A stretch of 55,644 nt of DNA. Source: a virus. Positions within the stretch are counted from its first letter, which is position 1; every line of letters starts with the position of its first letter. Position numbers and translations under genes: made by a program. This document shows positions 5,680 to 55,644 of this stretch, piece by piece. The DNA lies in IMG/VR virus record IMGVR_UViG_3300035698_008169, positions 1-55,644 of that record, one strand, 5' to 3'. The notes beneath the pieces are model-generated. The model did not search any database and was not told where the DNA came from. It saw only the letters and a list, made by a program, of their open reading frames with translations.

Positions 5680-7074
5680 ATGGACAGAAGTCTATTGGAA
5701 ATTAATAATTCACTCACTACAGTAAATCTACAGAGTAATGCTTTGATAAGAGAGTTATCATACAAATTATCTTATCCAGATAAAACTGCCCAATTTGCAT
5801 ACACAAGGAGAACCAAAAAATTTAAAGAATTCAGGGTTCATCTAATGAAAATGACAGATGATGGAAATTATGTTTTCCCCACTGGGTTATTAAATATAGC
5901 TAAAGATTTTTTGGCTGTCAAGGATGTTCCGGTCGAAATAATAGATAATAGAGTACCACCTACAGATTCTAAATATAAATATTACAGAAGATTTAGTGAA
6001 GAGCCTGCATTAAGAAAATATCAGGATAAATGCCTGGCCAATAGTAGAATCTATCCACGAGGAATTGTTGAAGCGGCCACGGGAACAGGCAAAACCAGAA
6101 TGATGCAAGAGATCACTGGTGACAAGGGTCTACCCACCCTAATTATCGTACCATCTTTGAACATACTAAAACAAACTTACAACGAATTTTCTTCACTTTA
6201 CTCCCCCAGTAAAGTTGGGATGGTAGGAGGCGGTAAGGACCAGGACCAATATCCTATAATTATCGCCACCTTCCAATCCCTTTTAGAAAAAAGTCTTTCC
6301 TTCTACAAAAAATTTGATATGGTCCTTATTGACGAATCCCACCATGCGGCCGCCCAAACTATTCAACAAATTAATGAAAAATTTTTAGACCACGTCTATT
6401 ATAGATATTATTTTAGTGCTACACCTTTTAGGAACGACGGGGCCGACTTGGCTTTAGAAGGAGTCATAAGCAACGATAAAATACTTGTATATGATTTTAA
6501 GAAGGCTTGTAAGGATGGTTATTTGACTCCTCCGTTTTTCCTTATCTATAAGTATGATCATAACGTAACATTTGAGAAGAAACCCGATTATAGGAAAGAA
6601 TATAAACATCTTATAGCGGAAAATGAAGCTTATAATGATTTTATTGCATCGGTCACTGAGACCATGAGGAAAAAAGATAGGCAAATCCTTATTTTTGTAA
6701 AACAGATTTCCCAAGGAGAACTTCTAAGAGAGAAAATCCCCAGATCGGTGCTTTTAACCGGGAAAGAAAAAATCAATGATAGTGAAGATATACTAAAAGC
6801 TTTCGAAAATAAAGAATTTGACGTATTAATAGGTACCTCTGTTATAGGGGAAGGAGTTAATCTCAAATCCGTTGATTGTGGCATTATGGCCGGAGCTGGT
6901 AAATCTAAGGGAGATATAATACAAAAGATAGGACGTCTTCTTAGAATCCATCCGAACAAAAAGAATGTTCTAGTAGTAGATTTTACACATGGCGGTTCCA
7001 TATTTAATCGAAACCACCACATAACTAGGAAGAAAGTATACGAAGGGTACGGTACTAAAATTTTTACTCTATAG
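5680..7074 (+). CDS. SF2 DNA/RNA helicase (UvsW-like DEAD/DEAH ATPase)
   Basis: This superfamily 2 helicase resembles T4 UvsW, which unwinds recombination intermediates and R-loops. Numbered from an in-frame ATG at 5668, motif I is ATGTGKT (137-143), motif II DESH (222-225) and motif III SATP (250-253). The C-terminal lobe carries GEGVN and QKIGRLLR (motif VI, with arginine fingers). The N-terminal 110 residues are a separate domain. I place the start at 5680, because GGAGG lies five bases before that ATG. Start 5668 would add four residues and has a poorer site. It opens a two-gene plus-strand island running against all other genes. Confidence 0.88.
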   Translation: MDRSLLEINNSLTTVNLQSNALIRELSYKLSYPDKTAQFAYTRRTKKFKEFRVHLMKMTDDGNYVFPTGLLNIAKDFLAVKDVPVEIIDNRVPPTDSKYKYYRRFSEEPALRKYQDKCLANSRIYPRGIVEAATGTGKTRMMQEITGDKGLPTLIIVPSLNILKQTYNEFSSLYSPSKVGMVGGGKDQDQYPIIIATFQSLLEKSLSFYKKFDMVLIDESHHAAAQTIQQINEKFLDHVYYRYYFSATPFRNDGADLALEGVISNDKILVYDFKKACKDGYLTPPFFLIYKYDHNVTFEKKPDYRKEYKHLIAENEAYNDFIASVTETMRKKDRQILIFVKQISQGELLREKIPRSVLLTGKEKINDSEDILKAFENKEFDVLIGTSVIGEGVNLKSVDCGIMAGAGKSKGDIIQKIGRLLRIHPNKKNVLVVDFTHGGSIFNRNHHITRKKVYEGYGTKIFTL

Positions 7075-33064: not shown

Positions 33065-33838
33065 CTACTTCCCCTTTTTCTTCTTGTCTTTTTTACTACC
33101 TCTGGATTTTTCCATTTCCTTAAGTTTAGTGTAATAATCTGGCATCTCATCCAAATGAGCAATAGCAATCTTGGCTGTGGCTGTTTCATTATCGTGGGTT
33201 ACGTCAGTCTTTTTGTTCTGAGAACCATGTTCTACTTCAACATTCAGACCCATATGAAATTGATGCTGATCATACTTACCCCAGTCTAGTTTCAATTTGT
33301 CCCCTACGTGTTTAGCGTCTTCCATAGAGAATTTTTCTGGCGTTGATTTTTGTATTATGGCGTCTGATATGCGCTTAGAAATATTTTGTTTTAACCAAGC
33401 TTTATCTATCTTCTTAACCTCTTTGCCGATTATTTTTTCCTTCAATTCATCAACGGTCATTTTAGTACAACCTCCCCAAAAAGAACTATTAGTATAATGT
33501 TTTAAATAAGCCTCTTTGGCCTCTTTTTCATTAGTAAATCCTAACATAATTTTGTCTTCGTCGTGCTTACCACCAATGGTTTGATGAACTACAAAGACCA
33601 TTTCTGAGTCTTTGTCGGGGCCAACATAACAATCTATGTGATCTCCATCTTTACCAAGGGTACGTTTAATGTATCCATAATCATGACACATCTTTGTAGT
33701 ACCCGACCGACCGTTTCTGTCGGTCCATTCACGCACAGACCCCTTGCGGTTTTCAACCGAGATCTGTAAACCCTGAAATGGATACTTTTTCTGAAGTTTC
33801 CATCCAGAAAAAGTTGGGGTTTTACCCTTTAAAGACAT
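33065..33838 (-). CDS. InPase-like plus DUF5661 protein (polyvalent-protein type domains)
   Basis: This 257-aa protein combines two domains known from phage polyvalent proteins. Residues about 10-135 resemble the phage inorganic-pyrophosphatase-like (InPase) domain: HDYGYIKRTLGKDGDHIDCYVG, in which the acidic DGDHID is the probable metal site, then IMLGFTNEKEAKEAYLKHY. Residues about 168-245 resemble DUF5661: FSMEDAKHVG, then HMGLNVEVEHG and HLDEMPDYYTKL. The end is a Lys-rich tail stopping at TAG, yet the frame continues downstream. AAAGGA precedes the ATG. Such proteins may be packaged and delivered with the DNA; that is inference. Confidence 0.75.
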   Translation of the reverse strand: MSLKGKTPTFSGWKLQKKYPFQGLQISVENRKGSVREWTDRNGRSGTTKMCHDYGYIKRTLGKDGDHIDCYVGPDKDSEMVFVVHQTIGGKHDEDKIMLGFTNEKEAKEAYLKHYTNSSFWGGCTKMTVDELKEKIIGKEVKKIDKAWLKQNISKRISDAIIQKSTPEKFSMEDAKHVGDKLKLDWGKYDQHQFHMGLNVEVEHGSQNKKTDVTHDNETATAKIAIAHLDEMPDYYTKLKEMEKSRGSKKDKKKKGK

Positions 33839-36959: not shown

Positions 36960-38459
36960 TTACATGCGGCCGATATTACGAGCAATCATGTGATGCTTCG
37001 GTGCGTATACCAAAGGCATACCATAAAGAAGAACCATAAAACGGATTGCCGGAGAGAGAACCGCGAGGTTCATCTTCATCAACGGTGCAAGCTGTTTCCA
37101 TTCGAGTTCTGACTGCTGAAGGTCAAGGAGATAACCCGATGACAAGCCAGCGTCAAAATAACCTATATCAAAACCAACACCACCAGTACCAACACCGGCT
37201 GTGGCATTAACATATCCAACAAATTCGTGGCCAGCGACTGTGCCAACTGGGGCACGATAGACAGCATAGTAGATCGAGCTGTTATCACCAACACCAGCAG
37301 TAACGGTCATCTGTACACCACTAGCATCAACTGCGACTACGATTTCAGAAGTACCAGCGCCGAGGCCAGCTGCCGAAGCCACTGATTCACCAACGTTGTT
37401 AAGAGCTGAAAATCTGTAGGAATAAGTACCCGCTACTAAGCGAGAGTCTGCCATTACGCCAGCATCAACAAGTGCTGAAGTTGGAACGCCAGCAGGAGCG
37501 CCACTCTGTGCAACCGTAAGAGAAGCTCTCTTAGGAGACAAGAAACGGGAAGGAACCATTTTGTACGGGCCTGCAGCACTGAAAAACTCAGTGAGAACAA
37601 ATCCGGCCTGACCATTCACAACACCCATAGAGTTAATACGCTCTTTAGGCTGGAATTGGCGGTTCAAATCCGAATGGGTTTTGAAATCCATGAAAAAATG
37701 ACTAGGAACACCAAAGTTCTCTGCCATATTACGTGTAATGGCTTCCATGTCTTCTTCCGTCATGACAGCACCTTCAAGGCTGTAAACACATGAGGGATTG
37801 CCACCGTAACCAGCAAAGCCAGTATACTGAGCAGCTGTGTCAGAATCACCATAAACGATCTGCTGACCTAGACCATTATACTTCAAAGAAGTTGCAGGTA
37901 GGTTAGCAGGATCGCCATCGGCAATACCTGTTACTGGATCAAGAAACATGTCGTTAGCTTCGAAAAGCTGACGTTCCATTTGTTCCAAAACCCATTTTGT
38001 TCCAGCGCGTGCTTCAATAGCAACCGCTGATTCGACACTTGTACGTGCCAATGTCATTGGATGTGTTACGACTTTCGTACATCCAATATAACGGACGCGG
38101 GCTACTTGACGATTAAATTGAGCATCAACTTCGGTCGGAAGGACCTGAGCATCAGCATCAAAAAAACCACCACCAGCCAGCTGCGCACCGTGTGACGTAT
38201 ATCTATTATATTCATGGACTGTGTTCCATACGTCCGATTTAGGGACTATAGGCCACATTCTGAGATGTCTTTCATCCCAGGTTACTGAATGGAGAGTATA
38301 CTCAAGCGACTCAACCATTAGAGTTGATCCACCACTCATAGCACCTGGTGCACCAGCATATCCATACCCAGCTGTTAGAGCTTTGGCCAGTTCTTCTACT
38401 TCCTGCTGACCGTATTGAAGGCCCTGAGCTCCAAAGCCATTTTGAATTCCTTCATACAT
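36960..38459 (-). CDS. Major capsid protein
   Basis: This 499-aa protein forms the head lattice. It follows an acidic scaffold-like gene and has an N-terminal segment (residues 1-50) likely removed by the prohead protease. The body contains typical HK97-fold helices (AVAIEARAGTKWVLEQMERQLF) and a final domain ending MIARNIGRM. About residues 325-440 form an inserted Ig-like or fibronectin-like domain (YSYRFSALNNVGESVAS, IYYAVYRAPVGTVAG), probably exposed on the capsid surface. Residues 29-52 contain GYAGAP and SGGS, found again in the 918-codon protein. It has AAAGGAG upstream and a terminator downstream. Confidence 0.88.
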   Translation of the reverse strand: MYEGIQNGFGAQGLQYGQQEVEELAKALTAGYGYAGAPGAMSGGSTLMVESLEYTLHSVTWDERHLRMWPIVPKSDVWNTVHEYNRYTSHGAQLAGGGFFDADAQVLPTEVDAQFNRQVARVRYIGCTKVVTHPMTLARTSVESAVAIEARAGTKWVLEQMERQLFEANDMFLDPVTGIADGDPANLPATSLKYNGLGQQIVYGDSDTAAQYTGFAGYGGNPSCVYSLEGAVMTEEDMEAITRNMAENFGVPSHFFMDFKTHSDLNRQFQPKERINSMGVVNGQAGFVLTEFFSAAGPYKMVPSRFLSPKRASLTVAQSGAPAGVPTSALVDAGVMADSRLVAGTYSYRFSALNNVGESVASAAGLGAGTSEIVVAVDASGVQMTVTAGVGDNSSIYYAVYRAPVGTVAGHEFVGYVNATAGVGTGGVGFDIGYFDAGLSSGYLLDLQQSELEWKQLAPLMKMNLAVLSPAIRFMVLLYGMPLVYAPKHHMIARNIGRM

Positions 38460-49740: not shown

Positions 49741-49959
49741 TTAAGCCACCAATACTATTTGTGTGCCATTCCACAATTCCAATTGGCCGGTAGTTAAACA
49801 ATACCACATTCTGCCGGATTCAGTTAAACCCCACGCAGAAGTCATAGTGTTTCTTTGAGCTATGCCGATTCTAGGTAGCCACAGATACAAACTGGACAAA
49901 CCCAAGGAATTCAGCATTTGGATATTATCACCAGTTACCATGACTGCATTAACTATCAT
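49741..49959 (-). CDS. Small tip-module protein (72 aa)
   Basis: This 72-aa protein ends in the same module as its neighbour (WGLTESGRMWYC, QLELWNGTQIVLVA), preceded by about 30 residues with little similarity to other proteins. The ATG overlaps the stop codon of the 918-codon protein (ATGA), so it is translationally coupled to it. It is a paralogue of the 71-aa gene and of the end of the 508-aa baseplate protein. Its function is not known. Confidence 0.5.
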   Translation of the reverse strand: MIVNAVMVTGDNIQMLNSLGLSSLYLWLPRIGIAQRNTMTSAWGLTESGRMWYCLTTGQLELWNGTQIVLVA

Positions 49960-52706
49960 TCGTCACCATACCATTTGTTAAATTGTTTACCCCATTTTCC
50001 ATGGGCACCACTCTCGTGGGCTAAGTCACCAGCATGAGTTAAGTGTTCTAAGGCGTGCTGCATGTGCATGTCGCGTTGTCTTTCAGTGTTGGGTTTCCCC
50101 TCACTGTGCCGTTTTTGAGCTGCTCCTAAATGAAAATTGGCTGCATCAACGTGATCCGCAGAATCATAATCTTTATGTTGTTTTACAAAATGAAAATTCC
50201 TAGAATCTAAATCCTGCTCAGGGGGGACACCTTGCCCCTCACCAAGCCTTTTATAAGATGACAACATTTTAATAGGCTTACCAGTTCCAGTTTGTCCAAC
50301 TTCAACCGAAAAATCCTTTGCTGTCCCCTTAAGAATCTTAGGGAGTATTTTCTCTTCAAACACTTCTATTATGTTTCTTACACCGCTATCCGACTTACTT
50401 AAAGATTTTTTAATCTGACAGGTTAAAGCCATCTTTGCTACTGATTTACGATAACTCTTTTCGTCGTCATCATCCCAGGCTTTGTCAAGCATGCATTTCA
50501 TACATTTATCATTTACATGAGGAGTAACTTGGGTACACTTAGCACAATAATTACCTGTAATATGTTTTGGTTTATTAGCAAGAGATTCAGTCATCAAGAC
50601 TGACCCGCCAGATAATTTACCAGGAGCACCAGCATAACCATGGCCCGCTGTCATTGCTTTCTTTAAATTGTTTTTAAGACGTTCTCTTACTGTTAATGCT
50701 TTAGAATAACCTAGATGCTGAGCTGCCACACTAGCAGGTTTCTTGGGATCATCACTTGGATTGTCCCAATCTTGTCTAGCCATGTCGTCATGCGCCGTAG
50801 GAGAGACTTCTGAGCGTATTTTATTTTCTCCGTGTCCACTAGTTCTTATTTTAGGGGCGGCCTCTGGGGTGTGTTCACCTGCTGATTCATGGCCAGCCTC
50901 AAATGATTCCTGTTTACTAGGTTTAAACATGTTCAACACATCATGATGAGTATGTTTCCTAGGGGTAGAATCTATTTTAGTCTCGGATTCCGCAGTCGAA
51001 GTAATAGAGGGGGGAGCCGTTTTCTCTTTTTTGGGTTTTGGAGTGTGCCATGCATCTTTAACTGACTGAACACTTGGGTGGTCATTCGGAGTGTCATACG
51101 ACCAGTCCATGCCCTGACTATGTAATTTTTCTAATGAAGAATGGTCTTCTGCAGACATCCCCTCTTTAGGCATTAATTTATGGGGAGTATATCCTGAGGC
51201 TGTATTGTAAGCGCGATAACCACCAGTCGTCTTGGGTTTTATCACTTTTTCTGTACGGCCTATGCGATTCACTAGTCTTTCATGAGTCTGTCCTGTAGAT
51301 GAGTGCTGTTTAACCTGTGAAGTGCTTTGCTGTTTTTCTTTGGGAGGTTGTGCCTGACGAGTACCAAAATCAGCGGCGCTTTCGTCCTTTTTAGGAAATG
51401 GTCCAGAGTAAATATTATGATCAATCACTATCCCACTAGCACTACGGGGAGGCTGAGGAGTATCACTAGTCCCGGCCGCTGATCCACTATCTTTGGGCTT
51501 TTTATGACCCCAAGTTGAGCTAGATTTCGGAGGGGTAGAAACTTCCTCACCAGTCTTTTCGTCGTGTCTAACCAATTTTGGACTAGTGCGCTGAGTCTCT
51601 CCATAAGGATGGGGATTCTCTACACGTTTCCTGCTAGAACTCATCTTGCTGGCTTCCCAAGGATGGCTTTCTGATGGCAAATCCATGTTTAATGAAGAAG
51701 CCATTGCTCTGTGTACGTTTTTAGCTTGTACAATGTGCGGATGCTCATTACCAGTAGAATCAACTGCAGTGCCCATTTTCTTATGTATGTTTACAACATG
51801 ACTAACATGATGCCCCATAGATTCATAAGCGCGATAGGCATGTTCACCGTGCAAAGCTTTCTTTTGCTGTGTTTCTACCTTCGTATTCTCCGTCCTCTGT
51901 TTTTTTGTGGTAGGAGATTGATGGGGGGGTTTATCATGTATAGACGGCATCTTCTGAGGCTTATCTACATATATATTAGTTTCGCCGCCGCCAACAACGC
52001 CCAGTCTTTTAGTATGCTCATGGGTAGGTGTAGCAAACGGATTTCTCTTTTTTTCTTCTGGAGTTGGATCGATCCGTTTAATATCACTAACTTCAGCCCC
52101 CCTAGCAGGGACCTGCATAGTATGTTTGGTCGTGGGGTTCTTAGAAACACCTAAATCGGCCCGGCCACGATGTTCTAAACCATGAACATAAAGACGATCT
52201 ACGGATTCTAAATGATCACCAACAGTAAAATCTTTATGAGCTTCTTTGTGGGCCGCAAAAGAATGATCTTTAGCAGTCTGATGTTTGGGGTGATCAACTG
52301 GGGTATCAGCAGTAGCGTCAAAACTGGCGTGACCGTGTTCTGTGGCATGCACACCTTGTTCAGGGTCTTCGTGCCTTTGAAATTTAGTACCCATATGAAC
52401 ATGTTTACCACTACTTAATTTAAAAGCAGGTTCATACCGTATGGCCTGATCTGGAAAATGTTCAGTAGTATAAATTTTGGCGCTAGATTCCGCCTTCTTT
52501 TTATCCACAACATTATAAAAATTGTGTTTATCGCCCTCAGTGGAAGGCACAAATTTATTGCGATAATCAGACCTCACCGCCTTCTGTAAAGCTGCTTGTC
52601 GTAAAAATACTCTTTTAGTGACAGATTTAATGAATCGTTGTTCTCCTTCAGGTAAATCAACAACGATTGCGGCTAGACTCTTTATAAGGGTGTTGTGATG
52701 CGCCAT
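49956..52706 (-). CDS. Long His/Lys-rich low-complexity protein with zinc ribbon and capsid-protein-like peptide
   Basis: This protein of about 916 aa is unusual: visibly rich in His, Lys, Ser, Thr, Pro and Glu, largely disordered, with few hydrophobic segments. Numbered from an in-frame ATG at 52712, residues 688-711 contain GHGYAGAPGKLSGGS and MTESL, closely matching residues 29-52 of the major capsid protein. A zinc-ribbon-like CAKC...CMKC follows at about 723-740. The start at 52706 is favoured by AGAGG six bases upstream. It directly follows the prohead protease, so it may be an internal capsid protein cleaved at the shared peptide; function is inference. Confidence 0.6.
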   Translation of the reverse strand: MAHHNTLIKSLAAIVVDLPEGEQRFIKSVTKRVFLRQAALQKAVRSDYRNKFVPSTEGDKHNFYNVVDKKKAESSAKIYTTEHFPDQAIRYEPAFKLSSGKHVHMGTKFQRHEDPEQGVHATEHGHASFDATADTPVDHPKHQTAKDHSFAAHKEAHKDFTVGDHLESVDRLYVHGLEHRGRADLGVSKNPTTKHTMQVPARGAEVSDIKRIDPTPEEKKRNPFATPTHEHTKRLGVVGGGETNIYVDKPQKMPSIHDKPPHQSPTTKKQRTENTKVETQQKKALHGEHAYRAYESMGHHVSHVVNIHKKMGTAVDSTGNEHPHIVQAKNVHRAMASSLNMDLPSESHPWEASKMSSSRKRVENPHPYGETQRTSPKLVRHDEKTGEEVSTPPKSSSTWGHKKPKDSGSAAGTSDTPQPPRSASGIVIDHNIYSGPFPKKDESAADFGTRQAQPPKEKQQSTSQVKQHSSTGQTHERLVNRIGRTEKVIKPKTTGGYRAYNTASGYTPHKLMPKEGMSAEDHSSLEKLHSQGMDWSYDTPNDHPSVQSVKDAWHTPKPKKEKTAPPSITSTAESETKIDSTPRKHTHHDVLNMFKPSKQESFEAGHESAGEHTPEAAPKIRTSGHGENKIRSEVSPTAHDDMARQDWDNPSDDPKKPASVAAQHLGYSKALTVRERLKNNLKKAMTAGHGYAGAPGKLSGGSVLMTESLANKPKHITGNYCAKCTQVTPHVNDKCMKCMLDKAWDDDDEKSYRKSVAKMALTCQIKKSLSKSDSGVRNIIEVFEEKILPKILKGTAKDFSVEVGQTGTGKPIKMLSSYKRLGEGQGVPPEQDLDSRNFHFVKQHKDYDSADHVDAANFHLGAAQKRHSEGKPNTERQRDMHMQHALEHLTHAGDLAHESGAHGKWGKQFNKWYGDE

Positions 52707-52722
52707 GATCATCCTCTATGTG

Positions 52723-53613
52723 TTATTCTGTTTCTAGTTTATTAAATGCCTTCTTAATTTTACTAGAGACAAGATCTTTAAAAGCTTTTACCGTCTTTTC
52801 TTTTTGGTCTATCATCTGAGCTGCTACTAAAACTGATAATTGTGTTTCAATGCGTTCTAACAATTCATAAACGTTTGGTTCTTTAGGTTTCTGCTGCCCA
52901 CTCCAATCTGGGTCTGGGGAACTGAGTCCATTACCGAGGTCTTCTTGAGCTTCGCCACCCGCTGCAGCTTCGTTAGCCGGATTGGCATCACGTTTCTGAT
53001 CACCTGGACTTAATATGTCATTCTCCTTATGGATGTCAGTTTCCTGGGCTTCATAAGCTTTTTCCATGTCCTCTTCTCCTTTTCGTTTAGAGATTGCTTT
53101 ACATAATTCTACATATGTACTGGTATTAATCGGATCAAAAGTAATGGCAACCTTGTCAACTTTTGCCGCAGAAACAACCTTATTGTTTTTACCAGACCGT
53201 TTAAGGATTTTACCCTCAATAGATAATTTAACAGCTCGACTGTCTTTATCATCAAGGGATTTAAGAATTTGAAAGATGGATTGTGCTCTCTTGTGTTTTT
53301 TAAAGAGATAACCCTCCACAAACAGCCCCTTTTGGGTCATGGATGCGTCGTCGAGCTTCCCAACCATGTCTTCTGGATCACTACTATGATTGTAGTTAAT
53401 CCATCCTTGACCTTGTTTGATTGGACTTATGTCAAGACCGCGCTGTTTAACGATCTCTCCTTGTAAGTCTCTGTCCTCAGTGGAGGCTAATCCTTTAATT
53501 TTCCAACCCTTTTCAGTCTCTTCGCCTTTGACGAGATGAATGGGCATGTCAAATTGGAATTTACTCCAAAGTTGGGAATCGGGATCAGTAGCTTCAATAG
53601 ATTTTTTAACCAT
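52723..53613 (-). CDS. Prohead maturation protease with C-terminal scaffold-like tail
   Basis: This 296-aa protein is a head maturation serine protease of the S78/HK97-like type. GWINYNHSS (about 70-78) holds the catalytic His, and AVKLSIEGKI (about 127-136) the catalytic Ser, as in phage prohead proteases. Residues after about 180 form a charged tail with a Gly/Ala/Pro/Asp-rich linker and a coiled-coil (YELLERIETQLSVLV), which could act as an internal scaffold. It probably cleaves the capsid and other proteins containing the shared GYAGAP segment. AGAGG precedes the ATG. Confidence 0.88.
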   Translation of the reverse strand: MVKKSIEATDPDSQLWSKFQFDMPIHLVKGEETEKGWKIKGLASTEDRDLQGEIVKQRGLDISPIKQGQGWINYNHSSDPEDMVGKLDDASMTQKGLFVEGYLFKKHKRAQSIFQILKSLDDKDSRAVKLSIEGKILKRSGKNNKVVSAAKVDKVAITFDPINTSTYVELCKAISKRKGEEDMEKAYEAQETDIHKENDILSPGDQKRDANPANEAAAGGEAQEDLGNGLSSPDPDWSGQQKPKEPNVYELLERIETQLSVLVAAQMIDQKEKTVKAFKDLVSSKIKKAFNKLETE

Positions 53614-54052: not shown

Positions 54053-55644
54053 TCAAATCTGACACATGCCATTTGGACAGTTGGCCGCTATTAAGTCTTC
54101 AACTTTTACTGATTGTATGGGTGCCTCTCCTCTAGAACCGTCAGCATAAAGTGTCACTCCCTTTAGATAAGGGATATATTCAAGGAGTAGGTCGCTGATG
54201 CGCTGCTTCTCCGCTTTGTCTTTAAGAACCGATTTTGGAAGATTTATGGTTTTGGCAATTGAATTATCTACATATTTTTGACAGACTTTCTGCATTTCAA
54301 GATGTATCCTAACAGGTACATCGTGAGTAGTTTTGATTGTAGATACGTCCCTCTTTTCATCTATAAACTGTTGGATTAAAGGATGAACGATCATGCGCTT
54401 ATGGCTAGTTTTCCCTTTTCTAATAATGCGTTGAAATCCTAGTGAGAAAATCGGCTCTACGCCCGACGACGTGCCACATATTATTGAAGTGGTTCCGGTG
54501 GGGGCAATTGTTAATAATGCGCAATTTCTCATACCTTTTTGTGTGATAAGACCTTTAACGTAGGGGGGAAGAGTTTTAGCGAATCCACCTTCCATAAATT
54601 TATCGTGATCATAGACAGGGAACACACCTTTTGTAGCAGCTAATTCTGCTGAAGCCTTATAAGCTTCATCTCTGAGGAATTCCATCATCTTGTCAACAAA
54701 ATCGATCCCAGCTTCATCATATTCTAACCCCATCAAAAGCAGACAATCGTGAAGACCAGTAATTCCTAGTCCTAGACGTCTTACTTGTTTGACATTATTT
54801 TCAATCTCAAGAAGAGGATAATTGGTGGCATCTAATACATTATCAAGGAAACGAACCGAAAGTTTAATAATTTTAGCAAACTTTTCCCAATCAAAGACCC
54901 CGCTACTATTTACAAATTTTGGTAACACTAAAGATCCAAGATCGCAAGCTCCATATGGTTCTAGACAAATTTCACCACAGGGATTAGTACACACCAATTC
55001 TCTTGAGTATCCAATGTTGTTCATTTCATTAGCTAAATTAAAATTTAAGATGCCTGGCTCGGCTTTTGTAATGGCGTGCTCCACCAAAGTATTCCAAAGG
55101 TCTCTAGCTCTGATAGTTTTCCGTACACGATCTTTCCACATCAAAGGGTAATCTTTGTCTTTCTTTAGAGCTTTGAAAAAATCTGTTCCTGGTCCATTCG
55201 ATGGAATAATAACTGATATATTGGCGTTGTTTAAACGTTGTTCCTTAATCTTTGCTTTAATGAAATCTTCGATATTAGGGTGGTTTACTTCTAGAGCTAG
55301 CATTAGAGCCATACGACGACCACCCGAAGCTTGGATTACTTCTCCAAGGGAATTAACCACCTCCATAAAGGCAAGGGGACCACCAGCAGTACCACCAGTT
55401 CCTTTAATGGGATCTCCAGATGGACGGATGTTGGAACAATTAATACCGATCCCTCCACCCATACCGGTAACAATAATTGTGTCTTTAATTGATTGTCCCC
55501 ACTCTTCTCTAGAATCACCAGTAGGTAACACGTAACAATTACTACACACTATGCCCATTATTTGTAATGAATGATTTTTATCTACAGAAATGTCCCACAC
55601 ATCGTCATTGTAATCAATTTCTTCTATGGATTCTACCGATCTCC
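54053..55644 (-). CDS. nrdJ: Ribonucleotide reductase, class II-like (NrdJ), C-terminal part, interrupted by an intein at its 5' side
   Basis: This gene makes deoxynucleotides from ribonucleotides. The frame is open to the window edge, so the N-terminal part lies outside. The conserved parts are SNCYVLP (first redox Cys), GGGIG, the radical-site NPCGE, GACDLGSLVLP (second redox Cys), TIAPTGTTS and a C-terminal cysteine pair (CPNGMC). The order and the SSGVEPIF segment favour the B12-dependent class II enzyme. Codons upstream of the first redox Cys do not look like RNR but like an intein C-terminus (see next entry). The gene would restore a pool needed for replication of a large genome. Confidence 0.87.
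   Translation of the reverse strand, partial: RSVESIEEIDYNDDVWDISVDKNHSLQIMGIVCSNCYVLPTGDSREEWGQSIKDTIIVTGMGGGIGINCSNIRPSGDPIKGTGGTAGGPLAFMEVVNSLGEVIQASGGRRMALMLALEVNHPNIEDFIKAKIKEQRLNNANISVIIPSNGPGTDFFKALKKDKDYPLMWKDRVRKTIRARDLWNTLVEHAITKAEPGILNFNLANEMNNIGYSRELVCTNPCGEICLEPYGACDLGSLVLPKFVNSSGVFDWEKFAKIIKLSVRFLDNVLDATNYPLLEIENNVKQVRRLGLGITGLHDCLLLMGLEYDEAGIDFVDKMMEFLRDEAYKASAELAATKGVFPVYDHDKFMEGGFAKTLPPYVKGLITQKGMRNCALLTIAPTGTTSIICGTSSGVEPIFSLGFQRIIRKGKTSHKRMIVHPLIQQFIDEKRDVSTIKTTHDVPVRIHLEMQKVCQKYVDNSIAKTINLPKSVLKDKAEKQRISDLLLEYIPYLKGVTLYADGSRGEAPIQSVKVEDLIAANCPNGMCQI
55538..55644 (-). other. C-terminal end of an intein within the RNR gene (truncated)
   Basis: About 35 codons before the RNR redox Cys show DDVWDISVDKNHSL, like intein block F (VYDxxVxxNHxF), and then GIVCSN followed by Cys, like block G (GIVVHN|C). 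The terminal Asn and the +1 Cys needed for splicing are present; the penultimate His is replaced by Ser. The N-terminal splice block and any homing endonuclease domain lie beyond the window. Confidence 0.8.

Follow-up and report, generated by a model that had tools for sequence, protein, structure and literature searches.

The shared block and its gene neighbourhood

In the window, i.e. the whole stretch of 55,644 nucleotides of viral DNA that was analysed, a prohead protease of 296 amino acids (aa) is encoded on the minus strand at 52723-53613. It is directly followed by a protein of 918 aa rich in His, Lys, Ser and Pro (49956-52712, minus strand), the start of which at 52712 lies next to the protease end at 52723. 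The protease has a catalytic-domain match to phrog_1028/peptidase S78-like proteins (E 3.9e-35) with the His and Ser columns conserved, H76 and S131 being the predicted catalytic residues. The major capsid protein (MCP) of 499 aa is found at 36960-38459 (minus strand). It is of the SPO1/A511 type, as residues 199-497, the coat domain, align with positions 154-469 of the major head protein profile phrog_752 (E 1e-54), and tblastn connects it to SPO1 gp6.1 (E 2e-46).

Codons 688-711 of the His-rich protein (50580-50651, minus strand) share 19 of 24 residues with positions 29-52 of the MCP (38304-38375, minus strand). No other pair of 24-mers from the two proteins matches as well; shuffled versions of the His-rich protein (n = 100) reach at most 10/24 against the MCP, and the best pair outside the block reaches 7/24. 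A 45-residue query taken from the MCP arm gives the His-rich reading frame a score of 114, the next reading frame of the window 46 and shuffled queries at most 45, and no other protein among all reading frames of the window carries the peptide. The match itself, a similarity reaching a few residues further upstream and the position of the His-rich gene directly behind the protease gene had all been put forward in a preliminary description of this DNA, and all three hold. The upstream limit can be given precisely as the lysine of an LxKA motif three codons before codon 688, which is K26 in the MCP and K685 in the His-rich protein.

The block is thus located at K26-L52 of the MCP (38304-38384, minus strand), where the arm-query scores, the 24-mer match and the codon comparison define it as the putative scissile lysine and the start of the mature N-terminal arm. 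In the His-rich protein, the arm query, a profile and the 24-mer match define it as K685-L711 (50580-50660, minus strand), beginning LKK|AMTAGHGYAGAPGKLSGGSVLMTESL (a bar marks the scissile bond). At the DNA level, 48 of the 72 nucleotides are identical, which corresponds to 17, 20 and 11 of 24 at codon positions 1, 2 and 3, respectively. Identical four-fold codons number 4 of 12, and unrelated codon choice predicts 4.1; this level, equal to chance, implies that the similarity is kept at the protein level and does not come from a recent DNA duplication.

Little else in the His-rich protein resembles a defined domain. Residues 1-684 (50661-52712, minus strand) are cysteine-free, of low complexity and hardly conserved. 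A zinc-ribbon-like motif, CxxC-x10-CxxC (C723, C726, C737 and C740; 50493-50546, minus strand), is found just past the block with its four cysteines invariant in three homologues, and a family search with this region returned no significant match.

Cleavage site and boundaries of the block

The N-terminal processing of two homologous coat proteins is documented. According to its sequence record, the mature MCP of the Listeria phage A511 starts at residue 24, that is after K23 (CDS at 5944, mat_peptide at 6013), and the capsid entry 9row of the Staphylococcus phage 812 contains an MCP of 439 residues that aligns from precursor residue 25, that is after K24. Both lysines align with K26 of the window MCP, in a column that is invariant in 13 MCPs. 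By this alignment the window MCP is predicted to be cut after K26 (ELAK|AL), which would remove a propeptide of M1-K26 (38382-38459, minus strand). As the MCPs of A511 and 812 are cut after the very lysine which opens the block, the block corresponds to the N-terminal arm of the coat protein after processing.

The same site is found in the second protein. Among 77 pairs of MCP and partner, each from one genome, lysine occupies P1 in 77/77 MCPs and 74/77 partners, followed by A, S, G or T at P1', which gives a site of the form phi-x-K|A/S/G/T on both sides. The predicted site in SPO1 gp3.2 is PLDK|SLEAGYE and that in A511 gp84 is TFMK|SWTTGHG. Identity between the two copies of one genome is 27, 25 and 3% at P4 to P2, rises to 96% at the lysine, remains mostly between 40 and 92% up to about P26' and then falls below 20%. 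The upstream edge of sharing coincides with the mapped cuts of A511 and 812. Taken together, the cuts and the identity edges show that the shared block comprises the lysine and ~26 residues at the N-terminus of the mature coat protein.

Distribution of the arm copy among SPO1-like phages

In most relatives the second copy resides within the protease itself, and its location in a His-rich protein is the exception. The MCP arm is duplicated inside the protease on two further contigs (L130 and L131), and one copy within the protease is also found in SPO1 gp3.2, A511 gp84, phage 812, and Enterococcus, Lactobacillus and Bacillus phages, as well as in the Thermus phages phiMa and Cumys, the Pseudomonas phage Dolphis and the Myxococcus phage Mx1. 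A broad MCP alignment contained no stretch conserved enough for scanning, which is why a narrower one was used. When 29 whole records were searched with an arm profile, 25 contained two copies, three contained one, one contained none and three copies were never seen; as the profile was built from 30 arms, many of them from the same 29 records, the informative part of this result is the absence of a third copy.

A set of 63 non-redundant loci was gathered by the MCP alone, although one of the two search patterns sits at the end of the MCP arm and a few of the loci overlap with ones already seen. At 62 of these 63 loci, the copy lies in the prohead protease, a reading frame of ~300 aa two genes upstream of the MCP gene; the runner-up reading frame of a locus essentially never exceeds shuffled controls. 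The PHROGs profiles provide an independent check: the proteases of SPO1, A511 and L130 have a second match, to positions 9-60 of the major head protein family. As a separate observation, phrog_617, a "major head protein" profile of 626 positions, is also matched by the catalytic domain of the SPO1 protease (L132:4338-5105); a fusion of protease and MCP into a single protein may exist in some phages.

Exceptions exist. The whole records of two phages of Bacteroidota, the Bacteroides phage DAC16 (L137) and the Chryseobacterium phage MA9V-3 (L135), contain the MCP arm and no second copy, while a profile search of the record of the Thermus phage TMA (L163) found neither. The only miss among the 63 loci is a protease (L207:2595-3524) that has kept the K-S site and in which the arm copy has decayed (RKSLPANGVTSNRQPLGQGKSSG). 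These cases imply that the mimic is not indispensable.

Change of carrier in the window lineage

The relatives of the window were found through MCP searches. The two with the closest MCPs, G001 and G002 (64 and 66% identity to the window MCP, respectively), are IMG/VR contigs of the same metagenome. When the entire His-rich protein served as the query, no match was obtained among the viral contigs or the phage records, the arm plus the zinc-ribbon peptide gave chance-level matches only against the phage records, and a codon-pattern scan of the viral contigs for GYAGAPG was too unspecific. In both G001 and G002 the protease is immediately followed by a protein that carries the block, of 950 aa in G001 and 975 aa in G002. 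The first ~750 residues of these two carriers are hardly related to the window protein, whose residues 1-684 score no better than shuffled sequence against G001 and weakly against G002. Across the three carriers, flanks of 680-760 residues are nearly unalignable and the arm is kept. The G001 and G002 carriers retain LKKA(M/L)TAG(H/T)GYAGAPGDM(S/A)GGS(V/I)(M/L)MTE(S/E)L, the four zinc-ribbon-like cysteines and a His-rich helical C-terminal region. The motif has thus been conserved while the rest of its carrier has not.

The proteases of the three phages differ from those of SPO1 and A511 in a corresponding manner. They match phrog_1028 only up to position ~173 (17-173 for the window), whereas the SPO1 and A511 proteases match up to ~270, and the MCP-arm copy which follows the catalytic domain in SPO1 and A511 is absent from all three, being found in the next gene instead. 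In the window lineage, the arm copy has been displaced from the protease into its neighbour. All three proteases still have a phi-x-K|A site where the catalytic domain ends (K172, ELCK|AI, in the window). An intermediate form between the two arrangements may be represented by the protease of Mx1 (L136:1201-4920, 1239 aa), in which the arm at residue 242 is followed by ~1000 His/Pro-rich residues that resemble the window His-rich protein in composition.

Several further differences in gene content were noted. A ribonucleotide reductase with a B12-type barrel (54053-55642, minus strand; Pfam E 4e-98), inside which the window ends, is preceded in frame by an apparent intein C-terminus (VWDISVDKNHSLQIMGIVCSN|CYVLPTGDSREEW); the G001 and G002 enzymes read NLLNCFVLP at this place, without the intein-like sequence. 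An inorganic-pyrophosphatase-like domain is fused to DUF5661 in the window (33065-33838, minus strand), and the two are separate neighbouring genes in G001. Between its tail-fibre-like genes and the MCP, G001 has a block of genes (L003:3452-9257), named by eye as glycosyltransferase-, GDP-mannose-dehydratase-, methyltransferase- and sulfotransferase-like, which the window lacks at the same place. The window also encodes a phage chaperonin (3594-5336, minus strand; Cpn60_TCP1, E 1.4e-48).

Coupled evolution of the two copies

Judged from their sequences, the two copies of one phage evolve together. Own-phage pairs of arms score 92 and permuted pairs 69 (sd 1.45). For 11 distant phages the difference is 101 versus 53, a value of 101 being reached in 0 of 20,000 permutations. 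With the MCP body taken into account, arm distances show a partial correlation of 0.33, the permuted maximum being 0.19. A switch between R and G that occurs in both arm copies looked decisive in a Fisher test; as it goes back to only one to three events on the MCP tree, it was rejected as support for coupling and is not used as evidence.

The mean residue identity between the copies is 65%, and synonymous sites are near saturation in most pairs. Identical four-fold codons amount to 328 of 669 overall with 281 expected, a modest excess. The Thermus phage phiMa stands out with 11 of 13 where 5.8 are expected, which looks like gene conversion. As a general cause of the similarity, recent gene conversion was rejected, since the four-fold codons speak against it in most genomes, with phiMa excepted.

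Structure of the carrier proteases

A structure model of the L130 protease, based on 60 sequences (pLDDT 80), shows two confidently folded parts, the catalytic domain and a three-helix C-terminal domain. Between them lies the arm (residues 207-233), which is unfolded, with pLDDT below 50, though it belongs to the conserved parts of the protein. Such an unfolded but conserved segment in the model would suit a peptide that acts by binding elsewhere. The nearest solved folds are those of T4 gp21 and the herpesvirus assemblins. K196 and K207 are invariant across the 60 proteases; K207 is the arm lysine, and K196 (LAK|SW), 11 residues before it at the end of the catalytic domain, is a possible additional self-cleavage site. 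For the C-terminal part of the His-rich protein, the model from three sequences (pLDDT 39) is unusable.

The protease has been found in the virions of three related phages (PMC5618024, PMC3601020, PMC12977511). This is compatible with a protease that imitates the coat arm, without proving it.

A proposed model of coat-arm mimicry

For most tailed phages, the route of the maturation protease into the prohead and the way it is switched on are still to be explained. The repeat of the first ~26 mature coat residues in the protease or in its neighbour suggests a shared tag for capsid assembly and processing. Sequence comparison alone shows that there are two copies with exact boundaries, that they occur generally, that they are coupled within a phage and that one has been displaced; docking, release and the cuts in the window phage are what we infer. 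On balance we consider it probable that the coat-arm mimic, together with the K|A/S/G/T site, leads both shell and protease to treat a second head protein as if it were coat protein.

The second copy of the arm would turn another head protein into a mimic of the coat arm. In most phages checked of the SPO1-like supergroup, the carrier is the prohead protease, with the arm as a flexible linker from the catalytic domain to the small helical C-terminal domain; the window lineage uses the neighbouring His-rich protein of 918 aa instead, with the arm placed ahead of the zinc-ribbon-like motif. The copy would bring its carrier to the site of the coat-protein N-termini within the procapsid, where the protease would cut the carrier at the same lysine as in the coat protein. 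The cut would separate what precedes the lysine (the protease domain, or residues 1-685 of the His-rich protein in the window) from what follows it. The arm may bind to the shell, to an exosite on the protease or to both of them. The more specific model, in which the maturation protease of the SPO1-like supergroup or its neighbour gains entry to the procapsid as a mimic of the coat N-arm and has its tether cut at the same lysine, the arm being a portable shell-address tag re-housed in the window lineage, is held more tentatively, at somewhat less than an even chance.

The block might alternatively serve substrate recognition only, as an extended prime-side recognition sequence; the protease copy would then be an autoprocessing segment or pseudo-substrate, the window His-rich protein another substrate, and docking to the shell would play no part. 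Sharing does begin at the P1 lysine with phi-x-K|small in both partners, and the proteases of other large phages cleave off a C-terminal propeptide of their own, which comprises 64 residues in SPN3US gp245 (PMC10052503). We nevertheless regard this explanation as unlikely, if clearly worth considering, as the block extends to P26', which is long for a protease groove and off-centre to the scissile bond, the L130 model does not place the arm on the protease domain, and the window protease retains a phi-x-K|A site without the block. Furthermore, HK97 gp5 is cut at K103|S104, yet the gp4 protease manages without an arm copy.

Pure paralogy would explain the pattern by an old duplication of the arm into the protease, followed by fission or recombination to the next gene and occasional gene conversion, with no shared binding role. 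The codons of phiMa and the slight overall codon excess are what it would lead one to expect. Residue identity of 65% with a sharp edge at the cut lysine, in spite of synonymous near-saturation in most pairs, makes it improbable, as do the retention of the copy at 62/63 loci and the survival of the arm in three window-group carriers with nearly unalignable flanks.

The preliminary description had proposed LM-x-E|S as the likely maturation site, by analogy to the L/I-x-E preference of the T4 protease. A sequence of the form (L/M)-x-E-S does end the block in both proteins, but the homologues A511 and 812 are cut ~24 residues further upstream, after the opening lysine, and the glutamate is replaced by glutamine in many MCPs and partners (ALRIQSLD), which leaves very little probability for this site, and it was rejected. 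The remainder of that interpretation has fared better: K26, aligned with the A511 and 812 cuts, places the peptide at the propeptide boundary; the motif, whose absence from every relative's protease-adjacent protein had been named as grounds for giving the idea up, is present in G001 and G002; and the peptide behaves as a portable module, in the protease of most relatives and in the next gene of the window group. Chance or compositional similarity, suggested by the richness of the peptide in Gly, Ala and Ser, is refuted by 19/24 identities against at most 10 in shuffles and by conservation in relatives.

The coat-arm mimic is directly testable, since this element of ~26 residues is present in the well-studied phages SPO1, A511 and K/812, and the window group, with its change of carrier, offers a natural experiment. 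If the arm is an address tag, it would provide a simple means to load proteins into these capsids, and phi-x-K|A/S could serve as a cleavage rule for annotating processed head proteins.

Comparison with known systems

Shared prohead signals and common cleavage motifs are of a known kind, as in T4 and SPN3US/phiKZ. What appears to be new, being undescribed in the open papers searched, is that the protease which matures the capsid contains a copy of the mature coat-protein arm, and that this copy has been relocated to another protein. No description of the arm copy was found in the open literature on SPO1, Herelleviridae, 812 capsids and sequences shared by protease and capsid.

The internal proteins of T4 carry a capsid-targeting signal, a short N-terminal peptide removed at (L/I)xE. 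Both systems have a peptide common to head proteins beside the maturation cut, and T4 gp21 is the structure most similar to the L130 protease model. The block described here differs in being internal (residues 685-711 of 918), mostly located after the cut and equal to the mature coat arm, and in starting at a lysine, after which the homologous coat proteins are cut rather than after (L/I)-x-E. In the herpesvirus assemblin/scaffold system, the protease precursor has a C-terminal tail that interacts with the shell and is later cut off. The protease fold is related to that of the L130 model, but the herpesvirus tail is a scaffold sequence which binds coat protein and not a copy of a coat-protein arm. 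HK97 gp5 is cut after a lysine that precedes a serine, and this K103|S104 site resembles the phi-x-K|S sites found here; when HK97 gp4 was searched for the gp5 arm, no copy was found, the score of 29 staying below the shuffled maximum of 35.

In SPN3US/phiKZ, several head proteins are cut by one protease, gp245, which also removes its own C-terminal segment (PMC10052503). The cut in these phages follows A-x-E, the motif that their proteins have in common is a short one preceding the cut, and the propeptides are N-terminal; here, phi-x-K rather than A-x-E (S-x-E) precedes the scissile bond in 77/77 MCPs and 74/77 partners.

The closest counterparts are the SPO1-like head-maturation proteases of phrog_1028, the family to which the window protease (52723-53613) belongs. 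SPO1 gp3.2 and A511 gp84 carry their own MCP-arm copy after the catalytic domain, whereas in the window, G001 and G002 this copy is carried by the next gene.
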